NCBI GenBank assembly: GCA_002841295.1
Contig: PHEU01000014.1
Location: forward strand, 1 to 48,348
DNA length: 48,348 nucleotides
Reading direction: 5' to 3'
From: Actinobacteria bacterium HGW-Actinobacteria-6
GTDB taxonomy: Bacteria; Actinomycetota; Coriobacteriia; Anaerosomatales; Anaerosomataceae
Below the pieces are notes generated by a model that was not told the origin of the DNA, made no database searches, and saw nothing but the letters and a program-made list of their open reading frames with translations. Made by a program: the position numbers and the translations under genes. Shown here one piece after another: positions 7,551 through 44,075 of the stretch (position 1 is the first letter of the stretch; every line of letters starts with the position of its first letter).

Positions 7551-7642
7551 CGAAAAAGGCACTCCCGCTGAAAGGCGGGCAACGCAAAGTCACGGGTCTA
7601 ACGGGAGGCATGCCTCCCTACGACAGCCGGACTACCGAAGGT
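7551..7642 (+). ncRNA. Cyclic-di-GMP-I (GEMM) riboswitch aptamer
   Basis: The sequence has the ordered hallmarks of GEMM-I RNA. First is a P2 hairpin CCCGCT-GAAA-GGCGGG with the GAAA tetraloop, then the near-invariant ACGCAAAG. A CACGGGTCTAA segment follows, providing the tetraloop receptor side. Next come a perfect P3 hairpin (GGGAGGCAT / ATGCCTCCC region) and the closing CAGCCGGACTACCGA. A rho-independent terminator begins 19 bases downstream, then the start codon of a secreted HExxH protein. The family binds c-di-GMP and commonly controls adhesion, motility and surface genes. Whether ligand turns this one on or off needs the antiterminator fold and cannot be told by eye. Aptamer boundaries are approximate. 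Confidence 0.88.
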
Positions 7643-12478: not shown

Positions 12479-12713
12479 TTCCAACACCCCTTTTTTAGGC
12501 ACGGGACTAGCGTCGCCGTGCGGCCTGAACATTCCAGCCGGGGTGGTCCTTGATGTGCAGAAAAGCAAAGACCGACCCCGAATGCATGGGTCGGTCTCAC
12601 CATTGACTCCGCGTCGACATCGGTGACCGGAATTTCAGTCGACGCCTCTTCGTCTCCCTCTAATCTCTATGTGCAGATATGTGAATTGATGCTTTCTTGC
12701 TCTGCACAAGTAT
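12479..12713 (-). promoter_or_regulatory. Long structured leader of the surface protein gene
   Basis: From the predicted transcription start (about 12713) to the ATG, the minus strand can form a series of stems. In order these are TGTGCAGA/TCTGCACA (12701-12708 with 12670-12677), GTCGACGC-type GCGTCGAC/GTCGACGC (12638-12645 with 12611-12618), a strong terminator (12569-12597), and a GCACGG/CCGTGC hairpin near the ribosome binding site. I recognise no known riboswitch class. An aptamer-like region before a terminator suggests attenuation control. The gap between lon and this gene (12479-12796) holds no gene. Confidence 0.5.
12560..12597 (-). terminator. Intrinsic terminator inside the surface-protein leader
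   Basis: A perfect 10-bp stem (AGACCGACCC / GGGTCGGTCT) with a 9-base loop is followed on the minus strand by TTTGCTTTT. It lies 82-120 bases upstream of the adhesin start codon with no clear promoter in between, so it probably attenuates that gene. It could alternatively end a readthrough lon transcript. Confidence 0.75.
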
Positions 12714-20631: not shown

Positions 20632-20726
20632 TAGTTCCGCAAGTCGATGGCCCACTGAAGGGCCGAAGCGCGCTCCCTCGAAGGGTCGCACGAAACCCGT
20701 AGGCATCGATTTTGTGGGGGGTTCTC

Positions 20727-21665
20727 GTGCACATCCCTGATGGCATGCTCGACTCAAAGACCTGGATCACCGCGTGGGCCGGCTCGGCCGGCGTCCTCGG
20801 ATTCGCTGTCCGAGAAGTCAGACGCAAACTGACAGACTCCAAACTCGTGCTTATGGCTGTTCTCGCGGCGCTCATCTTCGCGCTGCAAATGCTCAACTTC
20901 CCTGTCGCAGGCGGCACCTCCGGACATTTCGCAGGCGGCGCAGCTGCAGCGATCATCCTCGGCCCGTGGCCTGCGGTACTTGTGATGTCGTGCGTACTTA
21001 TCGTCCAGGCGCTTATGTTTGCAGACGGCGGAATCACGGCCCTCGGTGCAAACATGGTGAACATGGCGATCGTCGGCCCGTTCATTGGCTGGTGGTTGTA
21101 CACGATGCTCACGCGCGCCAGCGCATCGCGCGGTCGAAGGACAGTCGCCGCATTCGTCTCAGCATGGGCGGGCTGCTTCTTCGCAGCGCTCTCAGCCGGA
21201 CTGATGCTTTGGATCTCGGGTCGGGTGCCGCTTGGCGCTGCACTCGGAGCGATGGGATTCTGGCACGCCATCATCGGCGTGGGAGAAGGGCTTATCACTG
21301 CGGGGCTTGTATCGTATCTACTCTCAGTCCGACCGGACCTGCTTGATGCGTCTGCCGAGACCCGCAAGGTCAGCATGTGGCCGGTAACGGCCACGCTCGG
21401 TATCACCGCGCTCGTAGCAGCCGGGCTGTCGTTCCTCGCGTCATCGCATCCCGACGGCCTCGAGTTCGTCTACTTCGAGAAGGGCCTGGGCGCGAAGTTT
21501 GCCGAGAAGACCCTGGTGAACAGCCCGATGCCTGACTACGTGTTGCCTGGCATCGGCAACGAATCGCTCGCCGGAATCCTCGCGGGAGTGGTGGGGCTCG
21601 TTATCACCGGTGCGCTCTTGTACGCAGCAGTCTCGGCCGTACGCACACGTCGGGCCAACGCATAG
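20727..21665 (+). CDS. cbiM: ECF nickel/cobalt transporter substrate-binding subunit CbiM/NikM
   Basis: This integral membrane S-component captures Ni2+ or Co2+. The GTG at 20727 is chosen because it gives the N-terminus MHIPDGMLD; family members use the N-terminal Met-His as metal ligands. GGGGGG lies just upstream. The 312-residue protein has about seven helices, with HFAGGAAAAIILGPWPAV and QALMFADGGITALGANMVNMA as family landmarks. A C-terminal extension with SSHPDGLE and a last membrane helix resembles a fused CbiN/NikN-like part. No separate cbiN is present. Hydrogenase-maturation genes downstream favour nickel as the substrate. Confidence 0.9.
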   Translation: MHIPDGMLDSKTWITAWAGSAGVLGFAVREVRRKLTDSKLVLMAVLAALIFALQMLNFPVAGGTSGHFAGGAAAAIILGPWPAVLVMSCVLIVQALMFADGGITALGANMVNMAIVGPFIGWWLYTMLTRASASRGRRTVAAFVSAWAGCFFAALSAGLMLWISGRVPLGAALGAMGFWHAIIGVGEGLITAGLVSYLLSVRPDLLDASAETRKVSMWPVTATLGITALVAAGLSFLASSHPDGLEFVYFEKGLGAKFAEKTLVNSPMPDYVLPGIGNESLAGILAGVVGLVITGALLYAAVSAVRTRRANA

Positions 21666-21688
21666 GTATCGCAAGAGAGGAGCGACGG

Positions 21689-22567
21689 GTGGGCGCAGTA
21701 CATAACGAGGGGCTGCACGAGCACGAGCACCGCCATGCCGACGGCACGGTGCACGGGCACGCGCACCACCACGTTCGCGATGCCGACCCGTCGCTCCGAG
21801 CACACGAGCACGCGCATGCAACCGCATTCGAGGGGCTGTCTGCTATCGCGTCTCCCCTCTCGGCACTCGACGCGCGCGCCAAGCTGCTTGCGGGGCTCGC
21901 GCTGATTCTTGGCTTCGTGACGACCACGCCGCTCCGGCCGGCTGAGCTTGCGCTTGCAGCGATGCTCTTTCTGTCGCTAACGCTCATCGGCAATTTGCCC
22001 GTCGGCAAGGTGCTCTTGAGGAGCCTACTCGTGATTCCATTCGCCGGCACGATTGCGCTCCTTGCGCCGCTTCAGGCGTCATGGGGGTCGCTCAACGCCG
22101 GCGGGTTGCTCGGCACGCAGGCGGCAGCCGGATGGGTCGCGGCGTACGCGATCCTGTCGAAGGCATGGCTCTCAACGCTCACGGTCGTATTGGTGAGCGC
22201 GACCACGCCAGTGCCAGAGTTGCTTGACGGGCTCCGCCGTCTGAAAGTCCCCGATGTCATGGTCATGCTGCTCGCCTTCATCTACCGCTACGCGGGGGTG
22301 CTCGGCAATCAGTTGCATTCAATGCGCGTTGCCGTGGCCAGCCGCGCCCCGCGCCTCGGGCGCATCGCGCACGTTCGACTCTACGGCAACCTCGCCGGCG
22401 CGATGGTGGTGCGTGCGTACGAACGCGGTGAGCGCGTGCACGCAGCGATGCTCGCACGCGGCTTCGACGGCACGCTCCCGACCGCCCGCACAACGCGCTT
22501 TGGTGCCGCCGAGATGCTCACCATCGCCTGCGCACTCATGACCGCTGCCGCGCTGGCGCTCTACTGA
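21689..22567 (+). CDS. cbiQ: ECF transporter membrane subunit CbiQ with His-rich N-terminus
   Basis: This is the EcfT-type coupling subunit that links the CbiM S-component to the ATPase. The 292-residue protein has an unusual hydrophilic N-terminal extension of about 45 residues, rich in His (HEHEHRHADG, HGHAHHH, HEHAHA), likely a metal-binding or sensing tail. The body has five or so membrane helices. The two EcfT Ala-Arg-Gly-type coupling regions are recognisable as VASRAPRLG and MLARGFDG. It starts at a GTG with GAGGAG upstream and lies 23 bases after cbiM. Confidence 0.9.
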   Translation: MGAVHNEGLHEHEHRHADGTVHGHAHHHVRDADPSLRAHEHAHATAFEGLSAIASPLSALDARAKLLAGLALILGFVTTTPLRPAELALAAMLFLSLTLIGNLPVGKVLLRSLLVIPFAGTIALLAPLQASWGSLNAGGLLGTQAAAGWVAAYAILSKAWLSTLTVVLVSATTPVPELLDGLRRLKVPDVMVMLLAFIYRYAGVLGNQLHSMRVAVASRAPRLGRIAHVRLYGNLAGAMVVRAYERGERVHAAMLARGFDGTLPTARTTRFGAAEMLTIACALMTAAALALY

Positions 22568-22580
22568 CCGAGGAGGACCC

Positions 22581-23336
22581 GTGCACGACACGCACCGCCC
22601 GATACTCGAGTTCGCGTCAACGCGATACGCGTACCCTGACGGCACCGAGGCGCTCCTCGGCATCGACCTGCGCATCAACGCGGGTGAGCGAGTCGCACTG
22701 CTCGGCCCGAATGGCGCCGGGAAGTCCACGCTCATGCTGCACACGAACGGCATCCTGCGCGCCTCGGCAGGGAGCGTCGCCGTGAGTGGCACACCGATCA
22801 CCGATGCGACCGTACGCGAAGTCAGGACGAACGTGGGTCTTGTCTTCCAAGATCCCGATGACCAGCTCTTCATGACGACGGTCTTCGACGACGTGGCGTT
22901 TGGCCCGCTCAACATGGGACTCACGCGCGAAGAGGCGGGCGACCGCGTGCACGACGCGCTTCACGCCGTTGGCCTCGCTGCCGAGGCGAGCAAGTCCGGA
23001 CAGCACCTGAGCTTCGGACAGCGCAAGCGCGTAGCACTCGCAACCGTCATCTCGATGCGGCCGGAGCTTCTCGTGCTCGATGAGCCGACATCGAACCTCG
23101 ACCCGCGTGCCCGCACCCATATGATCGAGTTGCTCTCGGCGCTTGATTCGACAATGCTCGTGGCAACGCACGACATGGATCTCGCGTGGACGCTCTGCGA
23201 CCGCGCCATCGTGCTCGACGGCGGCGTGATCGTCGCCGACGGACCACGCGAAGACGTGCTCGCTGACGAGGCGCTGCTCGGCGAACATGGACTGGAACTT
23301 CCGTGGGCCGTACGGCTCACGGCGCAGGGAGCGTAG
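22581..23336 (+). CDS. cbiO: ECF transporter ATP-binding subunit CbiO
   Basis: This ABC ATPase powers the CbiMQO nickel/cobalt importer. The 251-residue protein has Walker A LLGPNGAGKST, a Q-loop VFQDPDDQLF typical of EcfA/CbiO, a signature HLSFGQRKRVALA (LSxGQ with Phe in place of Gly at x), Walker B LLVLDEPTSNLD and the switch His VATHDMD. It starts at a GTG with GAGGAGG, 13 bases after cbiQ. Confidence 0.95.
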   Translation: MHDTHRPILEFASTRYAYPDGTEALLGIDLRINAGERVALLGPNGAGKSTLMLHTNGILRASAGSVAVSGTPITDATVREVRTNVGLVFQDPDDQLFMTTVFDDVAFGPLNMGLTREEAGDRVHDALHAVGLAAEASKSGQHLSFGQRKRVALATVISMRPELLVLDEPTSNLDPRARTHMIELLSALDSTMLVATHDMDLAWTLCDRAIVLDGGVIVADGPREDVLADEALLGEHGLELPWAVRLTAQGA

Positions 23337-23366
23337 GGGGCGGGGACTGCTACAATCGGAGGCACT

Positions 23367-23999
23367 ATGAAGTCGATCAAGAAGCCACACAAGACGGTCT
23401 TCGCAGACACGTCGGCAGGCGCACCCACGTACTGGGAGTGCCCGGCGTGCGGGTTCCTTTCGGGCGACCCCCGCTTCCTCGACCTCGAACACGCGTGCCC
23501 CGCATGTGGCGCCTCGGGCATTGAGCGTCGGCGCTTTCCATCCGATCGCGTACGCAGACTCGACGACCGCATCCGCGCCTACCAGGAACAAGGCGACGGC
23601 GAGATCGTCGTCATCTTGGTCATGGCGCTCCTTGAGACCATCCTCGAAGACATCGTCGACCGCATGATGAGCGCGCAAGGCGCCGACCTGAAGGTGCGCC
23701 GGGTGGTCATGGATTCGCAGCGCTCCATCGGGGTCCGTATCGGCAAGCTCTTCCCGGCGCTCGCAGGCGAAGAGTTCGAAGAGGCCGCTGAAGAGCTTGG
23801 CTACCGCGACTTTCCCAAGCGTTGGCGCACGATGCGTGAAGCACGCAACGCGTTCATCCACGACTCGCCGTTCAACGGTCCCCGCGAGCGTCTTGATGCC
23901 GAGATGGGTGCCGATGCCATGGTGCTCCTCGACCAGGCATACAAGCTGTTCGTCTTGCTCAACAACAAGTTCGTGGCCGACGGCCATCACCGGAGCTGA
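23367..23999 (+). CDS. Zinc-ribbon protein with HEPN-like helical domain
   Basis: The 210-residue protein has an N-terminal zinc ribbon (CPACG...CPACG, residues 25-50). A helical domain follows, with an acidic segment (ILVMALLETILEDIVDRM) and the motif MREARNAFIHDSPFNG. Arg-x4-His (RNAFIH) in a helical bundle is the signature of HEPN domains, many of which are RNases or RNA-binding. I cannot assign a specific family. It lies between cbiO and hypF with a good GGAGG site, and its stop is three bases before the hypF start, suggesting co-expression. Confidence 0.65.
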   Translation: MKSIKKPHKTVFADTSAGAPTYWECPACGFLSGDPRFLDLEHACPACGASGIERRRFPSDRVRRLDDRIRAYQEQGDGEIVVILVMALLETILEDIVDRMMSAQGADLKVRRVVMDSQRSIGVRIGKLFPALAGEEFEEAAEELGYRDFPKRWRTMREARNAFIHDSPFNGPRERLDAEMGADAMVLLDQAYKLFVLLNNKFVADGHHRS

Positions 24000-24002
24000 C
24001 GC

Positions 24003-26477
24003 GTGACAGCCGCGATCTCGCTGCACGTCACAGGCGTCGTCCAGGGCGTCGGCTACCGTCCGTTCGTCTACAACCTCGCGCGCCGTCTCGGCGTGACTGG
24101 CTGGGTGCGCAACGCCTCCGACGGCGTGTGGTGCCTGGCCGAGGGCGACCCCGAGACGCTCGCAACATTCGAACGTGCGCTTCGCGACGAGGCGCCGCCG
24201 ATGGCGGTCGTCGAGAGCGTAGTGGCCGAGGAGGTCGACCCGGAAGGCGCCGTTGAGTTCGTGATCATCGCCTCGCACGCCGAAGAAGGCGCGATGACGC
24301 TCGTCTCCCCCGACATCGCCACGTGCGATGCGTGCCGCAGCGAGCTCCTGGACCCGACCGATCGCCGCTACCGCTACCCGTTCATCAACTGCACCAACTG
24401 CGGCCCGCGATTCACGATCATCGATGACGTCCCCTACGACCGCCCGATGACGACCATGCGCGATTTCCCGATGTGTCCCGAGTGTTCCGCCGAGTATGGC
24501 GACCCCGCCGACCGCCGCTTCCACGCACAGCCCGACGCCTGCTTCGTCTGCGGCCCGCGCCTGTACCTCAATGGCAGCGGTAACGCCCCCGCCGACTGGG
24601 AGTGGAGTGCCGAGGTCGAAACCTCCCCCCGCCCACACCGTGACCACGATGCCGAGCGTACGCGCAGCGACGCCATCCTAGAAGCCGCGACCACGCTCCT
24701 GCGCGAGGGCGGCATCCTCGCGATCAAAGGCCTCGGCGGCTTCCAACTGGCCTGCGACGCCACCAACGAAGCAGCCGTATCCCGCCTGCGCGACCGCAAA
24801 CGCCGCTGGGGCAAGCCCTTCGCGGTGATGATGTCGACCCTCGAGCTCGCGAGCGAGTACTGCGAGATCTCCCCCGACGAGTCCAAGCTCCTAACAAGCC
24901 CCGCAGCCCCCATAGTCCTCCTCCGCCTACGTGAGAGTGTGGGGGCCTATGGCGAGTACGGGTGTGAGGACGAGGGAGCAGGCAAGTCCCTGGCGAGTTC
25001 CGCAGCCGGGGAAGGCGCCGAGGATGCGAAGCATCCGCAGGCGCCGAGGGCCCCCGGCAAGGACTGTTCGAGCAAGGGACTTGCCTGCTCGCTCGCTCCC
25101 GGACTGCGCGAACTCGGCGTGATGCTCCCGTACACACCGCTCCACCACCTGTTGCTCTCGGCGGTCGGCATCCCGCTCGTGATGACGTCCGGCAACCTCA
25201 GCGAGGAGCCGATCGCGACTGGCAATGCCGAGGCGCTCGAGCGTCTGGGCCAGATCGCTGACGCCGTGCTGCTGCACGACCGCGAGATCCGTTCGCGCTA
25301 TGACGACTCGGTGGCACGCGTGATCTCCTCGGGCACGGAATTGGTGCGGCGGGCGCGCGGCTTCGCGCCATTCCCGATCAGGCTCCCGTTCCGCTCGGAT
25401 GTGGATATCCTGGCGCTCGGCCCCGAACAGAAGAACACGGTGACGCTTCTCACCGGCGAGTATGCGTTCGTGTCGCAGCATATCGGCGACATGGAGAACG
25501 CCGAGACGTTCGCCGCCTTCGAGCGCACGATCAAGCTCTACAGCCGACTCTTCCGGGTGAACCCCGGCATCATTGCCTACGATTTGCACCCGGAGTACCT
25601 TTCGAGCAAGCACGCACTTTCGCTCGGACTGCCGGCCGTCGGCGTGCAGCACCACCACGCGCACGTAGCGGGCGTGGCCGCCGAGCACGGCATCGACGGC
25701 CCGTTCATCGGCGTAGCGCTCGACGGCACCGGCTATGGCCCCGACGGCACCATCTGGGGCGGCGAGGTGTTGCTCGCAACCCTCGGCGGATTCGATCGGC
25801 TCGCGAGGCTCTCGCACATGCCGATGCCCGGCGGCGCGGCTGCCGTCAAACGTCCCGCACGCATGGCTATCGGTGCGCTTGCAGCCGCAGGGCTGCTCGG
25901 CCACCCCGGTGCGGAATCGCTGCGATCTCGCCTGACCGAGGGCGAGGAATCCACCCTGCTGCGCATGATCGAGCGCGGCGTGAATTCGCCGCTCACCTCA
26001 TCGATGGGCCGCCTCTTCGACGCGATGGCTGCGATCTGTGGTGTGCGCGACGATGCGGGCTACGAGGGTCAGGCAGCCATCGAACTCGAGGCGGTCGCGG
26101 ACTCCTCGGCCCAAGGCACATACCGCTTCAGCATCACACCGGGCGAACCCGCCATCATCGAGAGCGCACCGGTACTTGAGGCCGCACTCGACGACATCGT
26201 CCGCGGCGTACCCGCAAGCACGGTCTCGACACGCTTCCACCGTGCGGTCGCAGCCGCTATAGTTGACCAGTGCAGCATGGCTTCAGCGTCTTCCGGGACG
26301 CGCGTCGTCGCCCTTTCAGGTGGCGTGTTGATGAACCGGCTCGTCATGGACGGTGCATTTTCCGGTCTCATCGACGCAGGGCTGCAACCGATCACACACG
26401 TCCGGCTCCCGGTCAACGACGGGGGCGTATCATTTGGGCAGGCCGTTGTGGCCTGGGCCCGGCGCCACGAAGTCTAG
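24003..26477 (+). CDS. hypF: Carbamoyltransferase HypF ([NiFe]-hydrogenase maturation)
   Basis: HypF converts carbamoyl phosphate to a carbamoyl-adenylate and transfers the carbamoyl group to the HypE C-terminal Cys, the source of cyanide ligands in [NiFe] hydrogenases. The 824-residue protein has an acylphosphatase domain (GVVQGVGYRPFVYNLARR) and two zinc-finger units (CDACRSELLDP...CTNCGPRFT, CPECSAEYGDP...CFVCGPR). A YrdC-like domain (LAIKGLGGFQLACDA) and a Kae1-like domain (VGVQHHHAHVAG) complete it. It is longer than usual (about 750) because a palindromic segment of about 60 codons interrupts the YrdC-like part between LLRLRES and APGLRELGVMLPY, with the frame kept. Confidence 0.95.
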   Translation: MTAAISLHVTGVVQGVGYRPFVYNLARRLGVTGWVRNASDGVWCLAEGDPETLATFERALRDEAPPMAVVESVVAEEVDPEGAVEFVIIASHAEEGAMTLVSPDIATCDACRSELLDPTDRRYRYPFINCTNCGPRFTIIDDVPYDRPMTTMRDFPMCPECSAEYGDPADRRFHAQPDACFVCGPRLYLNGSGNAPADWEWSAEVETSPRPHRDHDAERTRSDAILEAATTLLREGGILAIKGLGGFQLACDATNEAAVSRLRDRKRRWGKPFAVMMSTLELASEYCEISPDESKLLTSPAAPIVLLRLRESVGAYGEYGCEDEGAGKSLASSAAGEGAEDAKHPQAPRAPGKDCSSKGLACSLAPGLRELGVMLPYTPLHHLLLSAVGIPLVMTSGNLSEEPIATGNAEALERLGQIADAVLLHDREIRSRYDDSVARVISSGTELVRRARGFAPFPIRLPFRSDVDILALGPEQKNTVTLLTGEYAFVSQHIGDMENAETFAAFERTIKLYSRLFRVNPGIIAYDLHPEYLSSKHALSLGLPAVGVQHHHAHVAGVAAEHGIDGPFIGVALDGTGYGPDGTIWGGEVLLATLGGFDRLARLSHMPMPGGAAAVKRPARMAIGALAAAGLLGHPGAESLRSRLTEGEESTLLRMIERGVNSPLTSSMGRLFDAMAAICGVRDDAGYEGQAAIELEAVADSSAQGTYRFSITPGEPAIIESAPVLEAALDDIVRGVPASTVSTRFHRAVAAAIVDQCSMASASSGTRVVALSGGVLMNRLVMDGAFSGLIDAGLQPITHVRLPVNDGGVSFGQAVVAWARRHEV
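24972..25094. repeat. Palindromic element inserted in frame within hypF
   Basis: GAGCAGGCAAGTCCCT (24976-24991) is perfectly inverted at 25075-25090; with one mismatch the arms extend to 20 bases. Inside are further complementary blocks (GCCGGGG, GGCGCC, GGATGC-GAA-GCATCC at the centre). The whole approx. 120-bp segment can form one long imperfect hairpin. It encodes residues absent from typical HypF. It resembles the palindromic elements known to sit in frame inside genes of Rickettsia. Confidence 0.7.
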
Positions 26478-26497
26478 CGATAACAGGAGGTCCACGC

Positions 26498-26779
26498 ATG
26501 TGTCTCGGAATCCCCGCGAAGATCGTCGATGAACCCAACGACAACGGTATGGCCGAGGTAGAGATTCTCGGCGTGCGTCGTTTTGTCGGTACCCACATGG
26601 TGCCGGACGCAAAGGTTGGCGACTTCGTGCTCGTCCACGCGGGTTTCGCGCTTGAGATCATCTCTGAGCAGTTCGCGTTGGAGACGCTCGAGCTCTTCCG
26701 CCAGATGGAGCTTCCCGGCACCGAGGATCTTGAGCCGATGGAGCTCACCCCTATCGAGCGTCCGGCTCACCTGTCATGA
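26498..26779 (+). CDS. hypC: Hydrogenase maturation chaperone HypC
   Basis: This small chaperone binds HypD and the hydrogenase large-subunit precursor to deliver the Fe(CN)2CO unit. The 93-residue protein starts MCLGIPAKIVDEP. The essential Cys2 is exposed once Met is removed. The body VGDFVLVHAGFALEII is typical. ACAGGAGG stands upstream. It overlaps hypD by four bases (ATGA), indicating translational coupling. Confidence 0.95.
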   Translation: MCLGIPAKIVDEPNDNGMAEVEILGVRRFVGTHMVPDAKVGDFVLVHAGFALEIISEQFALETLELFRQMELPGTEDLEPMELTPIERPAHLS

Positions 26780-27876
26780 GCGAGGACATCCTCAAAGGGT
26801 TCCGCGACCCGGAACACGCGGCTGCGCTCGTCGCCGCAATCAATGAACTCGCGACTGAGCCGCAAACGTTCATGGAGGTCTGCGGCACCCACACGATGGC
26901 AATCGCGAAGAACGGCCTGCGTGGGCTCATGCCCGAGAACATCAAGCTTCTTTCGGGACCAGGCTGCCCGGTCTGCGTGACCGGCAACGCTGATATCGAC
27001 ATGGCGATCGAGCTCTCGCGCCAGCCGCGCGTGATCCTGACCACCTTCGGCGACATGATGAAGGTGCCGGGCTCGTACTCCACGCTCTCACGCGAGAAGG
27101 CCGACGGTCACGACGTACGTGTCGTCTACTCCCCGCTCGATTCGCTCACCCTAGCCGAGAGCAACCCCGAGAAGCACGTGGTCTTCCTCGGCGTGGGCTT
27201 CGAGACCACGGCACCCACAGTAGCGCTCACGATCCGTGAGGCGGCACGTCGCGGCCTTACCAACTGGTCGGCACTCTCGCTCCACAAGACGGTGCCCGAG
27301 GCGCTGCGCGCGCTCACGAATGACCCTGAGGTCAAGATCACCGGCTTCATCTTGCCCGGACACGTCTCGACCGTCATCGGATCCGCTCCTTACAGCTTCC
27401 TTGCAGAGGAGTACGGCGTTGCAGGCGTGATCACCGGCTTTGAACCGGTCGACGTGCTCCATGGCATCTGGATGCTCGCCAAACAGCGCGCCGAGGGTCG
27501 TGCCGAGATCGAGATCGCGTACACGCGCGCCGTCATGCCCGAAGGCAACGAGATCGCCGTCCGCGTCATCGAGGAAGTATTCGAACCCGTCGACGCCGAG
27601 TGGCGCGGGCTTGGAGTCATCCCCGGCACGGGGCTCGCCATTCGCGAGGAGTTCTCGCAGTACAACGCGCTCGTTCGCGTGCCGGTGACACCACCGGAAC
27701 CACGCGAGATCAAGGGCTGCCAGTGCGGCGACGTCTTGCGCGGAGCAGTGCTCCCGTTCGAGTGCAGGCTCTTCGGTCGCGGTTGCACGCCTGAGCACCC
27801 GATCGGTCCGTGCATGGTTTCCTCGGAAGGCTCCTGCGCGGCCTACTATCGCTACACAGATTACGGCAAGGCATAA
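26776..27876 (+). CDS. hypD: Hydrogenase maturation Fe-S protein HypD
   Basis: HypD is the [4Fe-4S] scaffold on which the Fe(CN)2CO centre is assembled, with HypC. The 366-residue protein has the conserved MEVCGTHT (Cys36), GPGCPVCVT (Cys64 and Cys67), ITGFILPGHVSTVIG, and GFEPVDVLHGI. The C-terminal cluster cysteines are in GCQCGDVLRG, FECRLFGRGC and GPCMVSSEG. Length and motifs are complete. Confidence 0.97.
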   Translation: MSEDILKGFRDPEHAAALVAAINELATEPQTFMEVCGTHTMAIAKNGLRGLMPENIKLLSGPGCPVCVTGNADIDMAIELSRQPRVILTTFGDMMKVPGSYSTLSREKADGHDVRVVYSPLDSLTLAESNPEKHVVFLGVGFETTAPTVALTIREAARRGLTNWSALSLHKTVPEALRALTNDPEVKITGFILPGHVSTVIGSAPYSFLAEEYGVAGVITGFEPVDVLHGIWMLAKQRAEGRAEIEIAYTRAVMPEGNEIAVRVIEEVFEPVDAEWRGLGVIPGTGLAIREEFSQYNALVRVPVTPPEPREIKGCQCGDVLRGAVLPFECRLFGRGCTPEHPIGPCMVSSEGSCAAYYRYTDYGKA

Positions 27877-27909
27877 GCCTGCCGCACGCATAACGGGAGG
27901 GACACGACT

Positions 27910-28920
27910 ATGCTGCAGGACCGGATTCTGCTTGCTCATGGCAGTGGCGGCACGATGATGCGCGACTTGATCAACGACATCTTCATGGTCGGATTCGATG
28001 ACGACGTCCTCGCACGTATGGACGATGCGGCGTCTCTGGACTTTCCCGGCTCGCGCCTCGCGATGAGCACTGACACCTACGTGGTGAACCCGCTCTTCTT
28101 CCCGGGCGCCGATATCGGCCGCCTGGCTGTCTGCGGTACCGTGAACGACATCGCAACTTCCGGTGCGCGTCCGCTCTACCTCTCGGTCGGCTTCATCCTT
28201 GAGGAGGGTATGCCGGTTGAGGACCTCAAGCGCATCCTGGTCTCGATGCGCGAAGCCGCCGCCGAGGCGGGCGTACGGATCGTCACCGGCGACACCAAAG
28301 TCGTTGAGAAAGGCCACGGCGACGGCTGCTACATCAACACCGCCGGCGTTGGCGTGCTTGCCGAGGGAATCGACCTCTCCGGATCGCTCTGCAAGCCCGG
28401 CGACGTCGTGCTCGTCTCGGGCACGCTTGGCGACCATGGCATCGCTGTCATCTCGACTCGAGAGGGTCTCTCATTCTCGACGGACATCGAGAGTGACGCC
28501 GCTCCCCTGGCCGAGATGATCGCCTCCGTCCTGGCGGCCGCTCCCGACGTGCGCTGCTTCCGCGACCCCACCCGCGGAGGTCTCGCTTCAACCCTGAATG
28601 AACTCGCCGGCGCATCTGGCGTCACGATTACCGTCGATGAGACGCTCGTACCCGTGCACGAGCAGGTTCGTGGCGCGTGCGAGATGCTCGGCTATGACGT
28701 CTTCCAGGTTGCCAACGAAGGCAAGATGGTGGCCGTCGTTCCCGCCGAGCAGGCCGAGGCAGCCCTGGCAGCGATGAGGGCGGCTCCTTACGGCGCTGAC
28801 GCTGCTATCGTCGGACAGGTCTCAGACGGCTCCGCCGGCAAGGTCTACGTGAAGACCGCCTTTGGGGCCACGCGAATCATGGACATGCTCGTCGGCGAAC
28901 AGCTGCCGAGGATCTGCTAG
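27910..28920 (+). CDS. hypE: Hydrogenase maturation protein HypE
   Basis: HypE dehydrates the thiocarboxamide on its C-terminal Cys to thiocyanate and donates cyanide to the iron centre. The 336-residue PurM-like protein starts with the ILLAHGSGGTMM motif, includes TGDTKVVEKG and DPTRGGLAS, and ends exactly in PRIC, the invariant C-terminal tetrapeptide. It follows hypD by 33 bases with GGGAGGG before the ATG. Together with hypF, C and D this makes a cyanide-ligand pathway; hypA and hypB and the hydrogenase structural genes are outside the window. Confidence 0.97.
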   Translation: MLQDRILLAHGSGGTMMRDLINDIFMVGFDDDVLARMDDAASLDFPGSRLAMSTDTYVVNPLFFPGADIGRLAVCGTVNDIATSGARPLYLSVGFILEEGMPVEDLKRILVSMREAAAEAGVRIVTGDTKVVEKGHGDGCYINTAGVGVLAEGIDLSGSLCKPGDVVLVSGTLGDHGIAVISTREGLSFSTDIESDAAPLAEMIASVLAAAPDVRCFRDPTRGGLASTLNELAGASGVTITVDETLVPVHEQVRGACEMLGYDVFQVANEGKMVAVVPAEQAEAALAAMRAAPYGADAAIVGQVSDGSAGKVYVKTAFGATRIMDMLVGEQLPRIC

Positions 28921-35046: not shown

Positions 35047-35754
35047 CTACAGCCCGAGAGCTCGCTTCAGGGCCGGAACACGGCGCCTGGAGGCGGGGAC
35101 CTGCGTGGCTGCCTTGTCTTTGAGCGTCAGAAGCATCGTACCGCCGTACATCGGTACGATCTCTTTGACCTGCGCGAGATTCACCACGAATCGGCGATGC
35201 ACGCGGAAGAAGCCCTGGGGTTCAAGCTTGCTCTCGAGTTGTGCGAGCGACACGGTCGAAAGATATCGCTCCTCGCTCGTGTAGATGTAGGAGTAGTCGT
35301 CCTTGGCCATCACGTAGAAGATGTCGTCGACCTGAAGGAGCAGCTTGCGGCCGCCCTTCTCCACCGGGACGCGCTCGATACGCACAGGCGCATCTTCCGA
35401 GGGACGCAGGCGCTCGATGGCGGTGCGCAAACGATCGACCTCAACGGGCTTGACGAGGTAGTCAGTAGCAGCCACCTCAAATGCCTTCACGGCATGCTCA
35501 CTATGTGCGGTGACGAAAATGATCGCAGGCTGACGCTCGAGTGTGCTCAGAACCTCAGCAAGGCGCATTCCCGAAAGGCCGGGCATGTCGATGTCGAGGA
35601 ACACGACGTCGTACGGAATCGCCTTTATGAGCTGTAGGGCCTCAGAGGCATTCGAAGCCTCGCCAACGACCTCGATGCCACCGGCCTCTTCAAGGAGGAA
35701 CCGTAGCTCGGAGCGGGCGGGAGCCTCATCGTCAACGACCAGTGCCTTAAGCAT
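35047..35754 (-). CDS. LytTR-family response regulator
   Basis: This is the DNA-binding partner of the LytS-like kinase. The 235-residue protein has a receiver domain (LKALVVDDEAPARSELRFLL, phosphoacceptor Asp in DVVFLDIDMPGLSG, Lys in DYLVKPV). A LytTR domain follows (DIFYVMAKDDYSYIYTSEER and RVHRRFVVNLAQVKEI). ATG 35754 overlaps the kinase stop by eight bases and gives a normal receiver start. LytTR regulators often control envelope, adhesion or competence genes, so the surface locus would be a reasonable but untested target. Confidence 0.93.
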   Translation of the reverse strand: MLKALVVDDEAPARSELRFLLEEAGGIEVVGEASNASEALQLIKAIPYDVVFLDIDMPGLSGMRLAEVLSTLERQPAIIFVTAHSEHAVKAFEVAATDYLVKPVEVDRLRTAIERLRPSEDAPVRIERVPVEKGGRKLLLQVDDIFYVMAKDDYSYIYTSEERYLSTVSLAQLESKLEPQGFFRVHRRFVVNLAQVKEIVPMYGGTMLLTLKDKAATQVPASRRRVPALKRALGL

Positions 35755-37075
35755 CGTCACCCTCGCCGGATCGGGTGTCGGACAAAGCAAGCGTTGCGGT
35801 GACCGTGGTTCCGGTCCCCTCTTCACTCACGACAGTCAGTCCGCTTCCAGTGCTGAAGCGTCCTCGTAGCCTATCGTCCACGTTCTTGAGCGCTATGCCT
35901 AGCCCCTTGCCATATCCAGCTTCAAGGATGCGCGGCAAGACCGACTCCGGTATGCCCACGCCGTCGTCGGCAACCGAGAGCACAAGTGATTCCTGCTCCA
36001 CACGTGCGCTGATGGAGATATGGAGCGGTCCGTCCGGTCGCAGCCCATGCTGAACGCAGTTCTCGACGAGGGGCTGCACGATGAAGGCTGGAACCAGAAC
36101 CCTCATCGCGGCTGGATCGATATCCTCGGTAACCTGAATGCGCTCGCCGAAACGGGCGTGCTCGAAAACGAGGTAGCTGCGCGCGTACTCCAACTCTCGC
36201 TTGAGGGGGACGAGCTCCTCATTCTCCTCAAGCGTGCGGCGGTAGAAGCGTGCAAACTCGCGAAGCAGGTCGCGAGCGCGAGGGGGATCGGTGCGAATCA
36301 AACTCGCGATCGTGTTGATCGTGTTGAACAAGAAATGTGGGTTGATCTGCGCCTGAAGCGCCTTGAGCTCCATCCGGCACGCCAACTCGGTCTGCCGCTC
36401 CAGCTCCGAGAGCTCAAGCTGTGTCGAGAGCAGCCGGGCGAGCCCCTCAACCATCGTCACCTGCGTTTCGTTCAGCAAGCGCGGAGTGGTGTAGTAGAAC
36501 TTGAGCGTACCGACCGGCTCGTTGCGAATCTGCAGGGGCACGACAATCGCTGCCCTCAGCAGGCACCCCGTTCTCGGGCACCCGATCTCCTCGCGGGTGG
36601 AGAGGATACGGTGTTCGTTCGTCTCGATGGCCTCCCGTGTGGCACGCGTGAGAATCGGACCTCCCACCGCGTGGTGATCCTCGCCGATGCCCGCGAATCC
36701 AAGGACCTGCTCGGTGTCGGTGATCGCCACCGCCGCCGCCTCACTCTCCTCAAGCGCGAGCCGACAGACCGCCTGGGCGGTCTTCTGGTCAAGCCCGCGA
36801 CGAAGGTACACCAGGCTTTGATCGGCAATCTCCAGGATGTGATGCGAATGAAGAGCCTTCAGGTGATCCGGCCGGGTCACAAACCTGGCGACAGCCGAGC
36901 CGGTCGCAACGAACACAAGTCCAATGACAACCGACGTGAATACAAGCCTGGGGACGTCGACGACGAGCGCAGCCGCAGCCACCATGCCGATAAGAGCCGT
37001 CGTGAAGAGCAGCACCACATCGATGATCCATGTCCGCCGGCTGGAAACAGGCCTGAGACTCCCGTTGCCCGCCAT
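35747..37075 (-). CDS. LytS-like sensor histidine kinase
   Basis: The 442-residue kinase has two N-terminal membrane helices (IIDVVLLFTTALIGMVAAAAL and VFTSVVIGLVFVATG) rather than the larger 5TM-LYT module. A GAF-like domain follows (residues about 80-215; contains CPRTGCLLRAAIVVPL). The His_kinase dimerisation region has LQAQINPHFLFNTINTIASL with the phosphoacceptor His in NPHFLFN. The HATPase part has VQPLVENCVQHGL and VADDGVGIP. The start overlaps the GNAT stop (TGATG). The cytoplasmic GAF domain with Cys-Pro-Arg-Thr-Gly-Cys could sense redox or a small ligand, which is inference. Confidence 0.92.
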   Translation of the reverse strand: MAGNGSLRPVSSRRTWIIDVVLLFTTALIGMVAAAALVVDVPRLVFTSVVIGLVFVATGSAVARFVTRPDHLKALHSHHILEIADQSLVYLRRGLDQKTAQAVCRLALEESEAAAVAITDTEQVLGFAGIGEDHHAVGGPILTRATREAIETNEHRILSTREEIGCPRTGCLLRAAIVVPLQIRNEPVGTLKFYYTTPRLLNETQVTMVEGLARLLSTQLELSELERQTELACRMELKALQAQINPHFLFNTINTIASLIRTDPPRARDLLREFARFYRRTLEENEELVPLKRELEYARSYLVFEHARFGERIQVTEDIDPAAMRVLVPAFIVQPLVENCVQHGLRPDGPLHISISARVEQESLVLSVADDGVGIPESVLPRILEAGYGKGLGIALKNVDDRLRGRFSTGSGLTVVSEEGTGTTVTATLALSDTRSGEGDDA

Positions 37076-37899
37076 CAGCCCACGCCCATGGTGAGGAAGC
37101 AAGAAGCGCCTGGAAGCTCCCGGAACCCACCCCTGGCGTACAGCGCTCGTGAAGACACGTTCTCCTCCTGCGTATAGAGTGTCACAGCCCTGGCACCAGC
37201 GCGTGCCATGAACGCCACCGCATCGCCGAGCAGCAGAGCTCCGATTCCGCGACCGCGCTCTTCCGGCATGACCGCGAGTCGGCCGAGCATTCCATCGCCC
37301 CGGCTGACAGTGCAAAGAGTATAGCCGATGACCGAGCCGCCACGGATTGCAGCCGTTGCCCGCTCGGCTGCGAGGTATCTGCGAAGCGTCGGCGCGTCGA
37401 AGCGCCAGAAGTCGTCGAAACACGCGCCATCAACGCGCTCAAGCGCCTCGATATCGGCAGCACCAGCAAGACGAAGGCCGACACCCGGAACTGCAGGGGG
37501 TTCTTGGTCTCCCGGGCGGTCAAGGCGCAACGTGATCCCCCGATGGACGACCTGCATTCCCGCCGCGACGTACGGTGCCGAGAGGCCCTCGGCCACAAGC
37601 GGGCTCAAGAGACCGCTGAAGCCCTGCGAGCGTGCCAGCGAGCCGAGATCACGGAGGATCGACGCCATGTCGCGCTCGGCACACCAGAGGCCCTGTACGG
37701 CGAGCAGGCCGGAATGTGAGCGCCATACCCCAACCAGCGCCGCATCGCCCGCCTCGCTCACCTGAATGCGCCAGGGGGCGTCTCGCCATACGGCTTCGAA
37801 ATCCTCGCGGGTCTTGAACAGGTGTGCGGCCCCCACCGCCGCCCACACGGCGCCAAGCTCACGCTCGTCAGCGGCGCGCATTACGTGCGAGCGGCTCAC
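37075..37899 (-). CDS. GNAT N-acetyltransferase
   Basis: The 274-residue protein has a degenerate N-terminal GNAT-like half and a complete C-terminal one. The latter contains LGRLAVMPEERGRGIGALLL (acetyl-CoA loop R-G-x-G-I-G) and VTLYTQEENVSSRALYARGGF. Substrate is unknown. It starts at a GTG overlapping the TauE stop (GTGA) and ends overlapping the LytS start. Confidence 0.88.
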   Translation of the reverse strand: MSRSHVMRAADERELGAVWAAVGAAHLFKTREDFEAVWRDAPWRIQVSEAGDAALVGVWRSHSGLLAVQGLWCAERDMASILRDLGSLARSQGFSGLLSPLVAEGLSAPYVAAGMQVVHRGITLRLDRPGDQEPPAVPGVGLRLAGAADIEALERVDGACFDDFWRFDAPTLRRYLAAERATAAIRGGSVIGYTLCTVSRGDGMLGRLAVMPEERGRGIGALLLGDAVAFMARAGARAVTLYTQEENVSSRALYARGGFRELPGASCFLTMGVG

Positions 37900-40012: not shown

Positions 40013-40666
40013 TCACTTCGCGCTTGTCGCCTTCTCCGTGGCTGCCGAGCACTGCTTCATAACATCGACAAGTACCTTGTACGGTCGCGAACCCACCACT
40101 AGTTGCCTGCACATCAGTGCCGAGGGTGTGGTGCTCACGCCGAGCTCAATCGCGAGCTGCACGAAGGCATTCAGTCGCTCCTCGTACGTACCGTCCTGCC
40201 ACGCCTTCGTAACAGCAGCCGCATCCAATCCATGTGCTGCGGCGATCTTCAGCAGCACCTCCTGGCTGCCGATATCGAGCCCCAGGCCATAATGTGCCGA
40301 GAAGATCGCCTCGTGCACCGCCTCGTAGACATCCGGGCCCACATCTCGGGCCAGTTCAGCCATCACCATCGCGCGATGCGTCTTCGGAACAAAGTGCGGC
40401 AGAACCATCGGGTGCCCTGCCGCCTCAGCCAACCCGAGAAGATGAGCCTCGACATGCTCTGAGTGGTCGAAGTCGTTATCTGCGGCCGAGAGACCCTCCT
40501 CGGGCATGTCTGGTCGCAACTCGAACGGGACGTTCATCACGGGAACTGAGAATTCACGGGCAAGCTGCTCGTACCGGAACCGGTCGACGTAGCAGAATGG
40601 TCAAGCATAGTCGAAGAACACAAGCACCGGCTGAGTACCTGTCAGTCGTTCCTCGACGGCGCTCAC
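40013..40666 (-). CDS. Selenocysteine-containing FrnE/DsbA-family oxidoreductase
   Basis: This is a cytoplasmic thioredoxin-fold protein of 217 residues counting selenocysteine. The frame begins at GTG 40666, which overlaps the AmrS stop by four bases (GTGA), and runs through an in-frame UGA at codon 22 (40601-40603). The surrounding residues are VFFDYA-U-PFCYVDRF, where FrnE-type DsbA proteins have C-P-F-C. Downstream the protein is a complete FrnE-like domain (MNVPFELRPDMPEEG, GSQEVLLKIAAAHGLD, and cis-Pro region GVSTTPSALMC). A SECIS-like hairpin begins five bases after the UGA. The annotation from ATG 40540 alone would lack the active site. Expected chemistry is thiol/selenol-disulfide exchange; partner unknown. 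Confidence 0.85.
40565..40603 (-). promoter_or_regulatory. UGA codon and bacterial SECIS-like hairpin
   Basis: After the UGA and five spacer bases, the 31-base segment folds as CTGCT-a-CGT-cg-ACCGG-TT-CCGGT-ACG-AGCAG. That is a 13-bp stem with small bulges and an apical GGTT. The apical loop sits about 20 bases after the UGA, as in the fdhF SECIS read by SelB, which also carries an apical GGU. This strongly supports decoding as selenocysteine. Confidence 0.75.
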
Positions 40667-41670
40667 GTGCGCACCCCGAGCGGACGGCCACAGTGCGCGC
40701 AGCTTCCACCGTCAAGGCTCATGCTCAGCACAGCGTGTCCCTCTCGCTCGATTGCGGTGGCACCGCACGACGGACACCGCGTGTCCTCGCCGCCAGGCTC
40801 GTCGACATTGCCCAGAAAGACGAAGTGCAGTCCCTCCTCGGCACCGATCGCAACGGCTCTTTCAAGCGTCGGGATCGGCGTGGGCGGCAGGTGCGACAGC
40901 TCAACGTACGGGAAGAAGCGCGTGATGTGCCACGGCGTATCGGGGCCAAGTTCTCTCGCGATCCAGGCGGCGATACCATGCAGCGTGTCATCGTCGTCGT
41001 TGATCGTCGGGATGATGTTCGTGACGACCTCCACATGCATGTTCCATACCTGCCTGGCACGCACCGCCATCTCCAGCACGGGCTGCACAGAGCGAACCTT
41101 GCATAGGGTGTGGTACGTGCGATCGTCGAATGCCTTCACGTCAACACGCCAGACATCGATGACCTCGCCGATAGTGTCGAGACCCGCCTCGGTGATGTAG
41201 CCGTTGGTCACCATTACGGTGTAGAGGCCGGCAGCCCGGGCAGCCAGGGAGACGTCGAGCACGTACTCCACCCAGATCACGGGCTCGTTGTATGTGAACG
41301 CTATGCCCTCGCAACCATTCTCAAGGGCGAGACGCACGGCATCGTTCGGCGTCAACATGCTGAGTTCGCCGTCGCCGGGCTTCGAGCGGCTGATCTGCCA
41401 GTTCTGACAGTGCGCACAGTGCATAGTGCAGCCAACACTGCCAAGCGAAAACGCGCGCGTCCCCGGCCTGAAGTGAAACACGGGTTTCTTCTCGATCGGA
41501 TCGACGGCTGCGGCAGAAACGAGACCGTAGGTGAGCGGCACTAACCGACCACCGCGATTCTCGCGCACGCCGCAGACACCGGTCTTGTCGGGCGCGATCC
41601 GGCAGTCGTGCGGGCAGAGCAGGCAGTGCACCCGCTCGCCCTCAGCTTCCCAGAGAAGTGCCTCACGCAC
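40663..41670 (-). CDS. amrS: AmmeMemoRadiSam-type radical SAM protein AmrS
   Basis: This is a radical SAM enzyme of 335 residues. The cluster motif is in GCTMHCAHCQNWQIS. Additional cysteines lie at both ends: CLLCPHDCRI near the N-terminus and CPSCG...CAHCGRPLG at the C-terminus. The core YNEPVIWVEYVLDVS and TNGYITEAGL are typical of PflA-like AmrS proteins. Biological role of the family is unresolved; AmrA and AmrB partners are not in the window. It starts at GTG with GGGAGG and overlaps the selenoprotein gene by four bases, implying shared translation and perhaps shared redox function. Confidence 0.9.
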   Translation of the reverse strand: MREALLWEAEGERVHCLLCPHDCRIAPDKTGVCGVRENRGGRLVPLTYGLVSAAAVDPIEKKPVFHFRPGTRAFSLGSVGCTMHCAHCQNWQISRSKPGDGELSMLTPNDAVRLALENGCEGIAFTYNEPVIWVEYVLDVSLAARAAGLYTVMVTNGYITEAGLDTIGEVIDVWRVDVKAFDDRTYHTLCKVRSVQPVLEMAVRARQVWNMHVEVVTNIIPTINDDDDTLHGIAAWIARELGPDTPWHITRFFPYVELSHLPPTPIPTLERAVAIGAEEGLHFVFLGNVDEPGGEDTRCPSCGATAIEREGHAVLSMSLDGGSCAHCGRPLGVRT

Positions 41671-41679: not shown

Positions 41680-43503
41680 CTAGCCGGGAGCCAGCCGCAC
41701 CTGGTCCTTCCCGGCGTGCATTGCCTCCCGGAGCGCCGCGTCCGCGGACTCCAGCAACGCCATCGGATCCGAGAGTGTCTCGGCAGCCGTTGCAACACCT
41801 GCCGAGACGCTCAGGGCGTTATCGTCTGTATACCCCTCAGCACGACCGATGTCCGCTTTGCGAATCGCCGAGCGGATCTTCTCGGTGACAGCGAATGCGG
41901 CGGTCTTGCCCACGCCCGGGAGCAGCACGGCGAACTGGTCCGCCACGTAACGCGCCGCCATGTCGGTGGACCTGAGTTGCACCGCCAACAGATTCCCAAG
42001 TGCGGCCAGTATCCGGTCACCGGCTTCTTCGCCGAGCGAGTCGTTGACCGATCCGAAGTCATCGATATCGAAGAGCACTAGTGACAGCGGCGCCTTGTAG
42101 CGAGCATGCCGGGCGACCTCAAGCTGCAACCGCTCCGCGAAGGCACGTCTGTTCCATAGCCCCGTCAGCGCATCGAGGGTCCGGGTCGCCTCAAGCGATT
42201 CCTCGGCGCTGGCAAGGCGCTGACGCTGCAGTGGGAAGCACATCGACCAGGTCGAGTCTCCACGCAAGATGGCGATTGCGTGCTCGACACAGGTGGGATA
42301 GCCACACGATCCACAGTCCAGTGCGTCCGCCCGGGTGGCGAATCCGCCAGAGACGAGCACCTCGTCTATCTGCTGCTCTTCCGGGCGCGGTATGTGCACC
42401 GGTTCCGCAATAAACGAGCGCACAAGCTCGACTGCAGGCAGGACGCCGAGCAGCGCACGGGTGCTCACACGTGTTGTGCCGGGCAACTCGCGGGCGGCCG
42501 CCTCGACATTGCGCTTCGAGAAGAGTGAGAGCCCCGGGTTGACCGCCGGACCGTCGATGCAGCCCTCGCAGTTGAGCATATCCACGATTGCAGGCGCAAT
42601 CTCACCCGAGGTCATCGCCGCGAGCAGACGATCGAGCGCTTCGATGCCGCGCACCACGTACACCTGCTGGCTGGTCATGTCACTGGCGGCAAGCGTCTTG
42701 CGCGGGAAGCCGTCAGTGAGCGAGATCTCCTTGAAGATCCCGGGCCTGCGCGGACCGGGCTCGATCGCCTTGCCTCGAACCGGATGCTGATGCTCGGACT
42801 CAGCGATCATCGACTTGAGTTCTGCGAAGTCGATCGCAGCATCGATAACACCACCAAACTGGGGATCGTGGACTTCATCCTTGCGTGCGTAGCACGGGCT
42901 GACGTAGACGATGGCGACATCGTCGGGATAGAGCGACCTGATGAGTCGTGCCTGCGCGACATATGGCGGCATCACGGGAGCGAGTGCTGGTGTCAGTGCC
43001 GGGTAGTACCGTCGCACAAAGTTCACGGCCACCGGACACGTCGAGCGCATGACGAGCAGCGAATCCTCGCGAGCGTGCACACGTTCGTACTCAGCCGCAA
43101 CCATTTCCTCGCCGAGAAGCGTGGTCTCAACCGAGTGGAAGCCGAGAATGGTGAGTGCGCGCTCAACTTGCGGCACGGTCATCGGATGCATGGCCGCGAT
43201 GAACTCCGTCGCCAGCAAAGCGATCACCGGTCGACGTCCTCTGAGCAAATCAAGAACCTGCGGGGTGTCATCCCTGACGATGTGGCCGCGTGCACCACAC
43301 TCGTTCACGCACTGTCCGCAGGCGATGCACTTCTCCTGGATAACCTCGGATCGCCCGTCGACGACGCGAATCGCCTTCACAGGGCAAGCGCGCACACAGC
43401 CCCAGCACTCACGGCACGCTTCCTTGCGATGGGTGATGAGCGGCTCCCGCAGCTTATCGGCTGTCACCTCGACACCGGCATCGTGTCCGGCTCTGTCACT
43501 CAT
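41680..43503 (-). CDS. [FeFe]-hydrogenase-like sensor fused to FeS domain and degenerate GGDEF
   Basis: The 607-residue protein has a 2[4Fe-4S] ferredoxin domain (Cys30, 33, 36, 40 and Cys59, 62, 65, 69). A hydrogenase-like domain follows with equivalents of the H-cluster motifs: L1 RSTCPVAV (Cys156), L2 SPCYARKDE (Cys204), L3 NCEGCIDGP (Cys312, Cys315). Next are a four-Cys FeS domain (Cys397, 400, 405, 422) and a C-terminal GGDEF fold (LDALTGLWNRRAF, FDIDDFGSVND). The GGDEF signature itself reads V-A-D-Q-F (520-524), so cyclase activity is doubtful. The layout resembles the sensory group C (HydS-like) hydrogenases, which sense rather than turn over H2. GGGGGATC precedes the ATG, and it lies 11 bases after QueT. 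Confidence 0.88.
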   Translation of the reverse strand: MSDRAGHDAGVEVTADKLREPLITHRKEACRECWGCVRACPVKAIRVVDGRSEVIQEKCIACGQCVNECGARGHIVRDDTPQVLDLLRGRRPVIALLATEFIAAMHPMTVPQVERALTILGFHSVETTLLGEEMVAAEYERVHAREDSLLVMRSTCPVAVNFVRRYYPALTPALAPVMPPYVAQARLIRSLYPDDVAIVYVSPCYARKDEVHDPQFGGVIDAAIDFAELKSMIAESEHQHPVRGKAIEPGPRRPGIFKEISLTDGFPRKTLAASDMTSQQVYVVRGIEALDRLLAAMTSGEIAPAIVDMLNCEGCIDGPAVNPGLSLFSKRNVEAAARELPGTTRVSTRALLGVLPAVELVRSFIAEPVHIPRPEEQQIDEVLVSGGFATRADALDCGSCGYPTCVEHAIAILRGDSTWSMCFPLQRQRLASAEESLEATRTLDALTGLWNRRAFAERLQLEVARHARYKAPLSLVLFDIDDFGSVNDSLGEEAGDRILAALGNLLAVQLRSTDMAARYVADQFAVLLPGVGKTAAFAVTEKIRSAIRKADIGRAEGYTDDNALSVSAGVATAAETLSDPMALLESADAALREAMHAGKDQVRLAPG

Positions 43504-43514: not shown

Positions 43515-44075
43515 TCAGTCCTCGGCCACACCGAACATCTGCTCAAAACCGAGTCTCTTCAGAGCAGCGAGCACGACTCCCCCAAGTACGTAGACCGCGA
43601 CGAACTGACCCGCCGCAACCGTCGCGACGCCGAACGCGTACATCGCCGGCCACGATGACGAAACGCTGATTCCAAAGAGTGTGAGGTCATAGAACCCCGT
43701 CGCCGCCAGAACGAACGGCAGATAGGCTGGCACAATAAGCGCGTTCGTCACTATCGGGCCGAGCAGCGCGATTCTCGGACGCTTGCGGAACCGCCACATC
43801 CACATCGCTCCGAGCAACGTGCCGAGCGATCCGAACCCGACGTCGAGTAGAGCAACAGGACCAAAGAGCGGAAGCATCGCAGCGTTCGCCACGACAGAGC
43901 CAAGCGCCAATCCCGGAATCGCTGCCGGGGTAAGACATGCGACAACAGTCAGCGCCTCGCTGAGGCGAAGCTGAACCGGCCCGTAGCCGAACGGGTTCTG
44001 AATCGTGATGAACGTCAGCACGGCGTACACGGCGGCGATAACACCGGCCTGAGCGATGTAGCGTGAAAGCTTCAC
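43515..44075 (-). CDS. queT: QueT-family ECF transporter substrate-binding subunit
   Basis: This 186-residue integral membrane protein is of the QueT type, the S-component thought to import a queuosine precursor with a shared energising module. It has about six helices. GPVQLRLSEALTVVACLTP near residue 33 is the family signature. It starts one base after the histidine kinase stop. The energising EcfA/T components are not adjacent. Confidence 0.85.
   Translation of the reverse strand: MKLSRYIAQAGVIAAVYAVLTFITIQNPFGYGPVQLRLSEALTVVACLTPAAIPGLALGSVVANAAMLPLFGPVALLDVGFGSLGTLLGAMWMWRFRKRPRIALLGPIVTNALIVPAYLPFVLAATGFYDLTLFGISVSSSWPAMYAFGVATVAAGQFVAVYVLGGVVLAALKRLGFEQMFGVAED

Follow-up and report, generated by a model that had tools for sequence, protein, structure and literature searches.

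The locus and its surroundings

The window analyzed here is the whole 48,348-nucleotide stretch of contig PHEU01000014.1 from Actinobacteria bacterium HGW-Actinobacteria-6, a member of the order Anaerosomatales whose genome assembly of 2.35 Mb is rated 95% complete. On its reverse strand, at 41680..43503 (stop codon included), lies a 607-residue open reading frame free of frame problems, in which a Pfam scan recovered four regions, all with matches above their cut-offs. From the N-terminus these are two [4Fe-4S] ferredoxin motifs in residues 25-70 (C30, C33, C36 and C40; C59, C62, C65 and C69; 43294..43431; Fer4_10 match to residues 25-69, E 2.6e-8), an [FeFe]-hydrogenase-type H-domain in residues 93-319 (42547..43227; Fe_hyd_lg_C, PF02906, E 2.1e-32), an Fe-S domain with a Cx2Cx4Cx16C motif in residues 395-424 (42232..42321; FeS, PF04060, E 8.7e-7) and a GGDEF domain in residues 443-600 (41704..42177; PF00990, E 5.6e-35), all encoded on the reverse strand. 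The same scan detected no PAS domain in the protein, which is the sole carrier of a PF02906 domain in its genome. This composition is the one proposed in an earlier sequence-only reading of the DNA, as is the degenerate signature V-A-D-Q-F found at residues 520-524 of the GGDEF domain (reverse strand, 41932..41946). That reading had overlooked an intact I-site motif, R511-S-T-D514 (reverse strand, 41962..41973), and a third H-domain cysteine motif (L3) that is one residue short, with C312-E-G-C315 (reverse strand, 42559..42570), i.e. CxxC, replacing CxxxC.

An AlphaFold2 model of the protein based on 58 orthologues (mean pLDDT 88.1) matches solved [FeFe] hydrogenases over residues 1-351, with Z scores up to 33.8, and GGDEF domains over residues 421-590, with Z scores up to 26.9 for a c-di-GMP-bound GGDEF domain. 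Orthologues are present in about 62 of the 69 Anaerosomatales genomes, two of them being split across contig ends, and one further genome of the order has a broken copy of the gene. In L070 (G011), from a genome of the window's own family, the orthologue is in two pieces. This spread across the order, together with the invariance of the cysteines described below and the fold matches of the model, indicates that the domain architecture is not a chance assembly. Outside the class, the sensor module was recovered in about 35 genomes of a phylum-wide sample (E below 1e-35); the 26 looked at in detail show the same fusion to GGDEF, and in a small number of others the partner is a histidine kinase.

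Directly downstream of the sensor gene, after a gap of 9 nucleotides, is a gene for an AmmeMemoRadiSam-type radical SAM protein (reverse strand, 40663..41670; TIGR04337, 321.6 bits against a cut-off of 220), which is a probable operon partner and is present at 45 of 49 loci from the order. Directly upstream, across 11 nucleotides, lies a QueT-family transporter of the ECF S-component type (reverse strand, 43515..44075; PF06177, E 1.8e-32), present at 48 of the 49 loci; an MtrAB-like two-component system is also encoded upstream. Recurrent neighbors of the sensor gene in deep outgroups are this radical SAM gene, a TauE-type exporter gene and a LytS/LytTR-like pair. Specifically, the AmmeMemoRadiSam gene comes after the sensor gene or sits near it in deep branches of the phylum (L076, L077, L078, L090, L094 and L099), and the LytS/LytTR-like pair, whose copy in the window is at 35047-37423 on the reverse strand, is found near it in distant classes (L169, L171, L172, L173 and L178). 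Since the whole region is syntenic, we take this neighborhood as weak evidence of shared function. A literature search on AmmeMemoRadiSam returned nothing useful.

Elsewhere in the window there are two c-di-GMP riboswitches, where the sequence-only reading had rightly noticed such an element but counted only one. The first, of the c-di-GMP-I type (RF01051; forward strand, 7548-7639), precedes an open reading frame of 177 residues (forward strand, 7738-8271) that has no Pfam match. The second, of the c-di-GMP-II-GAG type (RF03169; reverse strand, 12580-12666), is directly upstream of a gene for a 1387-residue surface protein with SdrD/SpaA/DUF11-type domains (reverse strand, 8405-12568), which is followed by a sortase gene (reverse strand, 6758-7582); this arrangement suggests c-di-GMP control of adhesion. 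The genome as a whole gave ten matches to the sensor query, nine of which are presumably GGDEF-only loci. Going by these GGDEF matches and the two riboswitches, c-di-GMP appears to be in use in the source cell. The window also holds a [NiFe] hydrogenase maturation cluster (forward strand, 20712-28920), in which genes for HypF, HypD and an AIR-synthase protein resembling HypE come after those for a CbiM/CbiQ/ATPase metal transporter.

A hydrogenase-type module with altered cofactor motifs

All 16 cysteines of the protein, inclusive of the eight in the ferredoxin motifs, are invariant in the 60 aligned orthologues, and the 2, 4, 16 spacing of the C-terminal Fe-S motif is retained in 84 of 84 GGDEF-linked homologues. 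The exact Cx2Cx4Cx16C pattern is a signature of the group C and D sensory hydrogenases (PMC8163306), and by its sequence the H-domain shares a common ancestry with the sensory [FeFe]-hydrogenase (HydS) branch, bearing out the kinship that had been proposed for it. The candidate ligands within the H-domain are C156 (L1, RSTCP), C204 (L2, SPCYARKDE) and the pair C312/C315 (L3, NCEGCIDGP). The last of these motifs departs from the hydrogenase pattern. Counting residues directly between the two cysteines, which rules out an alignment artefact, gave two in 84 of 84 GGDEF-linked homologues, as against three (CxxxC) in the solved hydrogenases, which belong to group A, and in most of the sensory-type, group-C-like relatives from Clostridia. 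A second departure concerns the position of Lys358 of CpI, an L2 residue in contact with one of the cyanides on the [2Fe] unit. This position is occupied by arginine in 60 of 60 Anaerosomatales orthologues and mostly by alanine, glutamine or valine in the outgroups, while four Clostridia comparators have lysine. Two requirements of a normal H-cluster are thus altered in the sequence.

The complement of maturases was surveyed alongside, with Thermotoga maritima matched in each search as a positive control. No HydG was found in the source genome, nor were HydE or HydF matched above cut-off in it, this being the genome in which the latter two were sought. HydG was likewise found in none of the 69 Anaerosomatales genomes, including one that is a single contig rated 100% complete; a gap in the assembly is thereby ruled out as the reason for the missing maturases. 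Among the phylum-level genomes with the sensor module, HydG is missing from all but one (G269), whereas it is present in all four Clostridia genomes that encode CxxxC relatives. The AmmeMemoRadiSam neighbor was considered as a substitute H-cluster maturase because it follows the sensor gene in most of the order and at several deep outgroup loci; it is a member of the AmmeMemoRadiSam family, and we found no support for such a role.

These observations bear on whether the protein is a true group C HydS, with a full H-cluster in its H-domain through which H2 is sensed and signaled via the GGDEF domain, along the lines of the H2 or redox link suggested in the sequence-only reading. The H-domain, the paired ferredoxin motifs, the Cx2Cx4Cx16C motif in its exact form and all four candidate ligand cysteines are what such a protein would have, and cultured Anaerosomatales, which are strict anaerobes, do consume H2 (PMC9686372). 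However, this H2 use is ascribed to the [NiFe] hydrogenases that they encode (PMC9686372), in keeping with the [NiFe] maturation genes of the window, and the order-wide lack of HydG, the CxxC form of L3 and the replacement of Lys358 leave a true HydS very unlikely. In that reading, the lack of hydEFG in conjunction with poorly conserved cysteine motifs had been named as what would speak against an H2 sensor; the search it proposed did find the maturases wanting, but the cysteines proved to be perfectly conserved, and it is their spacing that is altered.

Comparison with the TmHydS and TamHydS proteins of groups C and D, based on their published description and on the Clostridia relatives recovered here, is instructive in both directions. 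Like the window protein, they combine an N-terminal two-cluster ferredoxin domain, an H-domain and a Cx2Cx4Cx16C C-terminal domain, and have lost the proton-transfer cysteine equivalent to CpI Cys299 and replaced M353, the latter by serine in both TamHydS and the window protein (PMC8163306). In contrast, the window protein has CxxC in place of CxxxC in L3 and arginine in place of Lys358, its genome lacks HydG and gives no HydE or HydF match that reaches the cut-off, and, relative to group C, a GGDEF domain takes the place of the PAS domain. Given the differences in the spacing of L3, in Lys358, in the maturases and, as regards group C, in the PAS domain, the protein is not to be classed as a group C/D hydrogenase despite the common ancestry.

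Closer in the state of L3 are CxxC sensors from Clostridia and other Actinomycetota (such as L180, L183, L162 and L163), which share with the window protein the Fer4 region, the CxxC H-domain and the four-cysteine Fe-S domain, but differ in having AAA+/HTH or histidine kinase outputs and in keeping the Lys358 equivalent. In Clostridia-class genomes, L180, L181 and L183 are proteins of about 870 residues in which a CxxC hydrogenase-like sensor module retains this lysine; read at full length, L180 continues into a PAS-like part and then sigma-54-activator (AAA+/HTH) sequence. Fe_hyd_lg_C domains have been described in sigma-54 activators of Clostridiales (PMC6615313). In the HydG-encoding actinomycetote genome G269, L162 and L163 are CxxC hydrogenase-like sensors with the lysine kept and a histidine kinase output. 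As CxxC sensors occur both in this HydG-positive genome and in the sigma-54 fusions of Clostridia, the CxxC motif by itself is no proof that the [2Fe] site has been lost. The motif states, rather than a whole-family tree, suggest a stepwise path from CxxxC with lysine and HydG, through CxxC with lysine in the sigma-54 and kinase fusions, to CxxC mostly without lysine in the GGDEF fusions of HydG-less genomes. The combination of invariant cysteines with altered spacing suggests a conserved Fe-S center devoid of the [2Fe] subsite; as a precedent for such a [4Fe-4S]-only center, we found no Fe-S protein with exactly the same pocket.

The GGDEF output and its lineage-specific change

The canonical GGDEF motif is intact in 26 of 26 outgroup sequences and in most of the Anaerosomatales, and on a tree built from just the sensor module its loss maps to two changes. 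The first falls in the window's own family, at its base; the 25 sequences of that family form one clade (SH-aLRT 100). The second, which on the sequences is independent of the first, affects one genus (g29) of another family, where L055 and L063 have the motif AGGEF and keep the RxxD of the I-site.

Six positions of the active-site region, each at least 93% conserved elsewhere, have been replaced in the window's family: K484, H492, G520, E523, Y592 and K595, naming the residues of the intact relatives at the positions of the window protein. They include the equivalents of K332, G368, E371 and K442 of PleD. The K332, E371 and K442 equivalents are lost across the family, the window protein having G, Q and M in their places, while the first glycine of GGDEF, His492 and Tyr592 are mostly changed; the two lysines are conserved in nearly all intact relatives. 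The window protein thus has neither the GG(D/E)EF motif nor the K332, E371 and K442 equivalents (PleD numbering) by which active diguanylate cyclases are recognized. A sequencing error or gene decay behind VADQF is ruled out, the degeneracy being common to the 25-genome clade and dN/dS lying well below 1. Within the family this ratio is 0.12-0.30 for the GGDEF domain against 0.04-0.12 for the sensor half, and as judged from it the domain is under constraint, somewhat relaxed, and not a pseudogene.

The retention of D479 and D522, the metal-binding equivalents, and of D496, equivalent to the guanine-contact residue, in all 25 family members could be read as a sign of a non-canonical diguanylate cyclase that has stayed active, the more so as active cyclases with AGDEF or SGDEF motifs are on record (PMC3974145). 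However, the fourth position of the motif is Q, R or T in 25 of 25 sequences; at this position an E-to-A change abolished the activity of VCA0965, and an AGDAF version is inactive (PMC3974145). Furthermore, the family has lost the K332 and K442 equivalents, and loss of K442/R446 has been read as inactivation in SgmT (PMC3509222). Together these make continued cyclase activity highly improbable.

The same three invariant aspartates imply that some nucleotide binding at the A-site may persist. The degenerate GGDEF domain of Caulobacter PdeA is known to bind GTP. By analogy, the A-site in the window's family might retain GTP, GDP or GMP as an allosteric ligand, with a guanine nucleotide and not c-di-GMP as the signal that is read, for which the conservation of D479, D496 and D522 and of N487 (22 of 25) would speak. 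On the other hand, weaker binding of a triphosphate is expected, given the loss of the phosphate-binding lysine equivalents and of the glutamate of GGDEF, and it is the I-site that is fully conserved, so we consider this alternative unlikely, if less far-fetched than continued catalysis.

The I-site residues R511, D514 and R518 and the secondary-site K542 are present in all 25 family members, and the arginine and aspartate of RxxD are invariant in these, in the 35 other sequences of the order and in the 26 outgroup sequences. The RxxD motif lies five residues upstream of VADQF, as in receptors of the PopA/SgmT type. K542, at the basic position of the secondary I-site (PleD R390), is lysine instead of arginine, as it is in the intact relatives. 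It could be argued that these residues are kept for folding alone and that the domain has become a dimerization or partner module with no ligand, as the domain has other positions just as invariant, the family total being 28 of 162. Yet all four I-site positions fall among those 28, for which a random draw gives p ~7e-4, though this null ignores the conservation of the I-site in intact relatives, and mutants of the SgmT I-site lose c-di-GMP binding (PMC3509222); hence a ligand-free module is quite unlikely. With six positions lost in a lineage-specific fashion and the I-site invariant, the sequences favor a ligand-binding over a catalytic function for the degenerate domain, which is also what the sequence-only reading had anticipated.

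A proposed redox sensor coupled to a c-di-GMP receptor

With receptors of the PopA/SgmT kind, the window protein shares a degenerate A-site, an intact RxxD I-site and a multidomain build. The sensor half of PopA consists of receiver domains. That of SgmT comprises GAF, kinase and receiver domains (PMC3509222), whereas the window protein has a hydrogenase-derived Fe-S module in this place; it further differs from both in that its sister families still hold an apparently enzymatic ancestral form. The diguanylate cyclase-linked [NiFe] hydrogenases of group 2c in HydDB (PMC5037454) resemble it in the idea of a hydrogenase-type sensor tied to c-di-GMP, but are [NiFe] enzymes of an unrelated fold with a presumably active H2 site. 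In the literature searched, of which coverage was partial, we found no description of a fusion of an [FeFe] hydrogenase to GGDEF. Judged by sequence, the protein's mode of action would come closest to that of a redox sensor attached to a PopA/SgmT-type I-site receptor.

The two halves are connected by a predicted signaling linker from Cys422 to Asp444 (reverse strand, 42172..42240), for which homologue spacing and the AlphaFold2 model are informative. The spacing is 22 residues in 81 of 84 homologues and 29, seven more, in the remaining three, and the stretch is mostly helical in the model. By analogy with other cyclases, this would fit a helical transmitter of fixed register.

We accordingly favor, with reasonable though far from full confidence, a model in which a pseudo-hydrogenase module serves as an Fe-S redox sensor and the output, ancestrally a diguanylate cyclase, has been turned into an I-site receptor for c-di-GMP, akin to PopA and SgmT. 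Under this proposal the protein would be a cytoplasmic sensor of redox state, and possibly of gas, whose H-domain no longer has the features, nor the genomic backing, that a [2Fe] subsite requires. Its clusters would most likely be of the [4Fe-4S] type only, two in the ferredoxin motifs, one in the old H-cluster pocket (C156, C204, C312 and C315), and the fourth in the C-terminal Cx2Cx4Cx16C domain. A redox change in these clusters, or their loss, would alter the helical linker of nearly fixed length and with it the pairing of GGDEF domains. The ancestral output would have been an apparently intact diguanylate cyclase with product feedback, which seems to persist in most of the order and in other classes of Actinomycetota. 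Since the active site is lost and the I-site kept, the output in the window's family most likely binds c-di-GMP made by the other cyclases of the cell, so that the protein would integrate redox state with the level of c-di-GMP and relay the result to a partner protein or location. The cluster types, the binding of c-di-GMP, the signal and the downstream partner are given here as we infer them.

What is known of sensory [FeFe] hydrogenases comes mainly from two proteins studied in purified form. The GGDEF fusions described here share that scaffold, and the intact sister versions of the window protein have an output, c-di-GMP synthesis, that is open to direct assay; the [2Fe] cofactor, which is difficult to make, is probably not required. 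The transfer of a signal from Fe-S clusters to an output domain thereby becomes testable. These fusions also serve as a warning that an [FeFe]-hydrogenase domain in a genome annotation need not mean [FeFe]-based H2 chemistry, and the window's family provides a clade-resolved case of a cyclase apparently turned into a c-di-GMP receptor. More generally, there is in our view an even chance that widespread hydrogenase-derived sensors in anaerobic Actinomycetota have lost the H-cluster and become Fe-S redox sensors controlling c-di-GMP, and that in one family the cyclase was converted to an I-site receptor, yielding a gate for redox state and c-di-GMP within a single protein.
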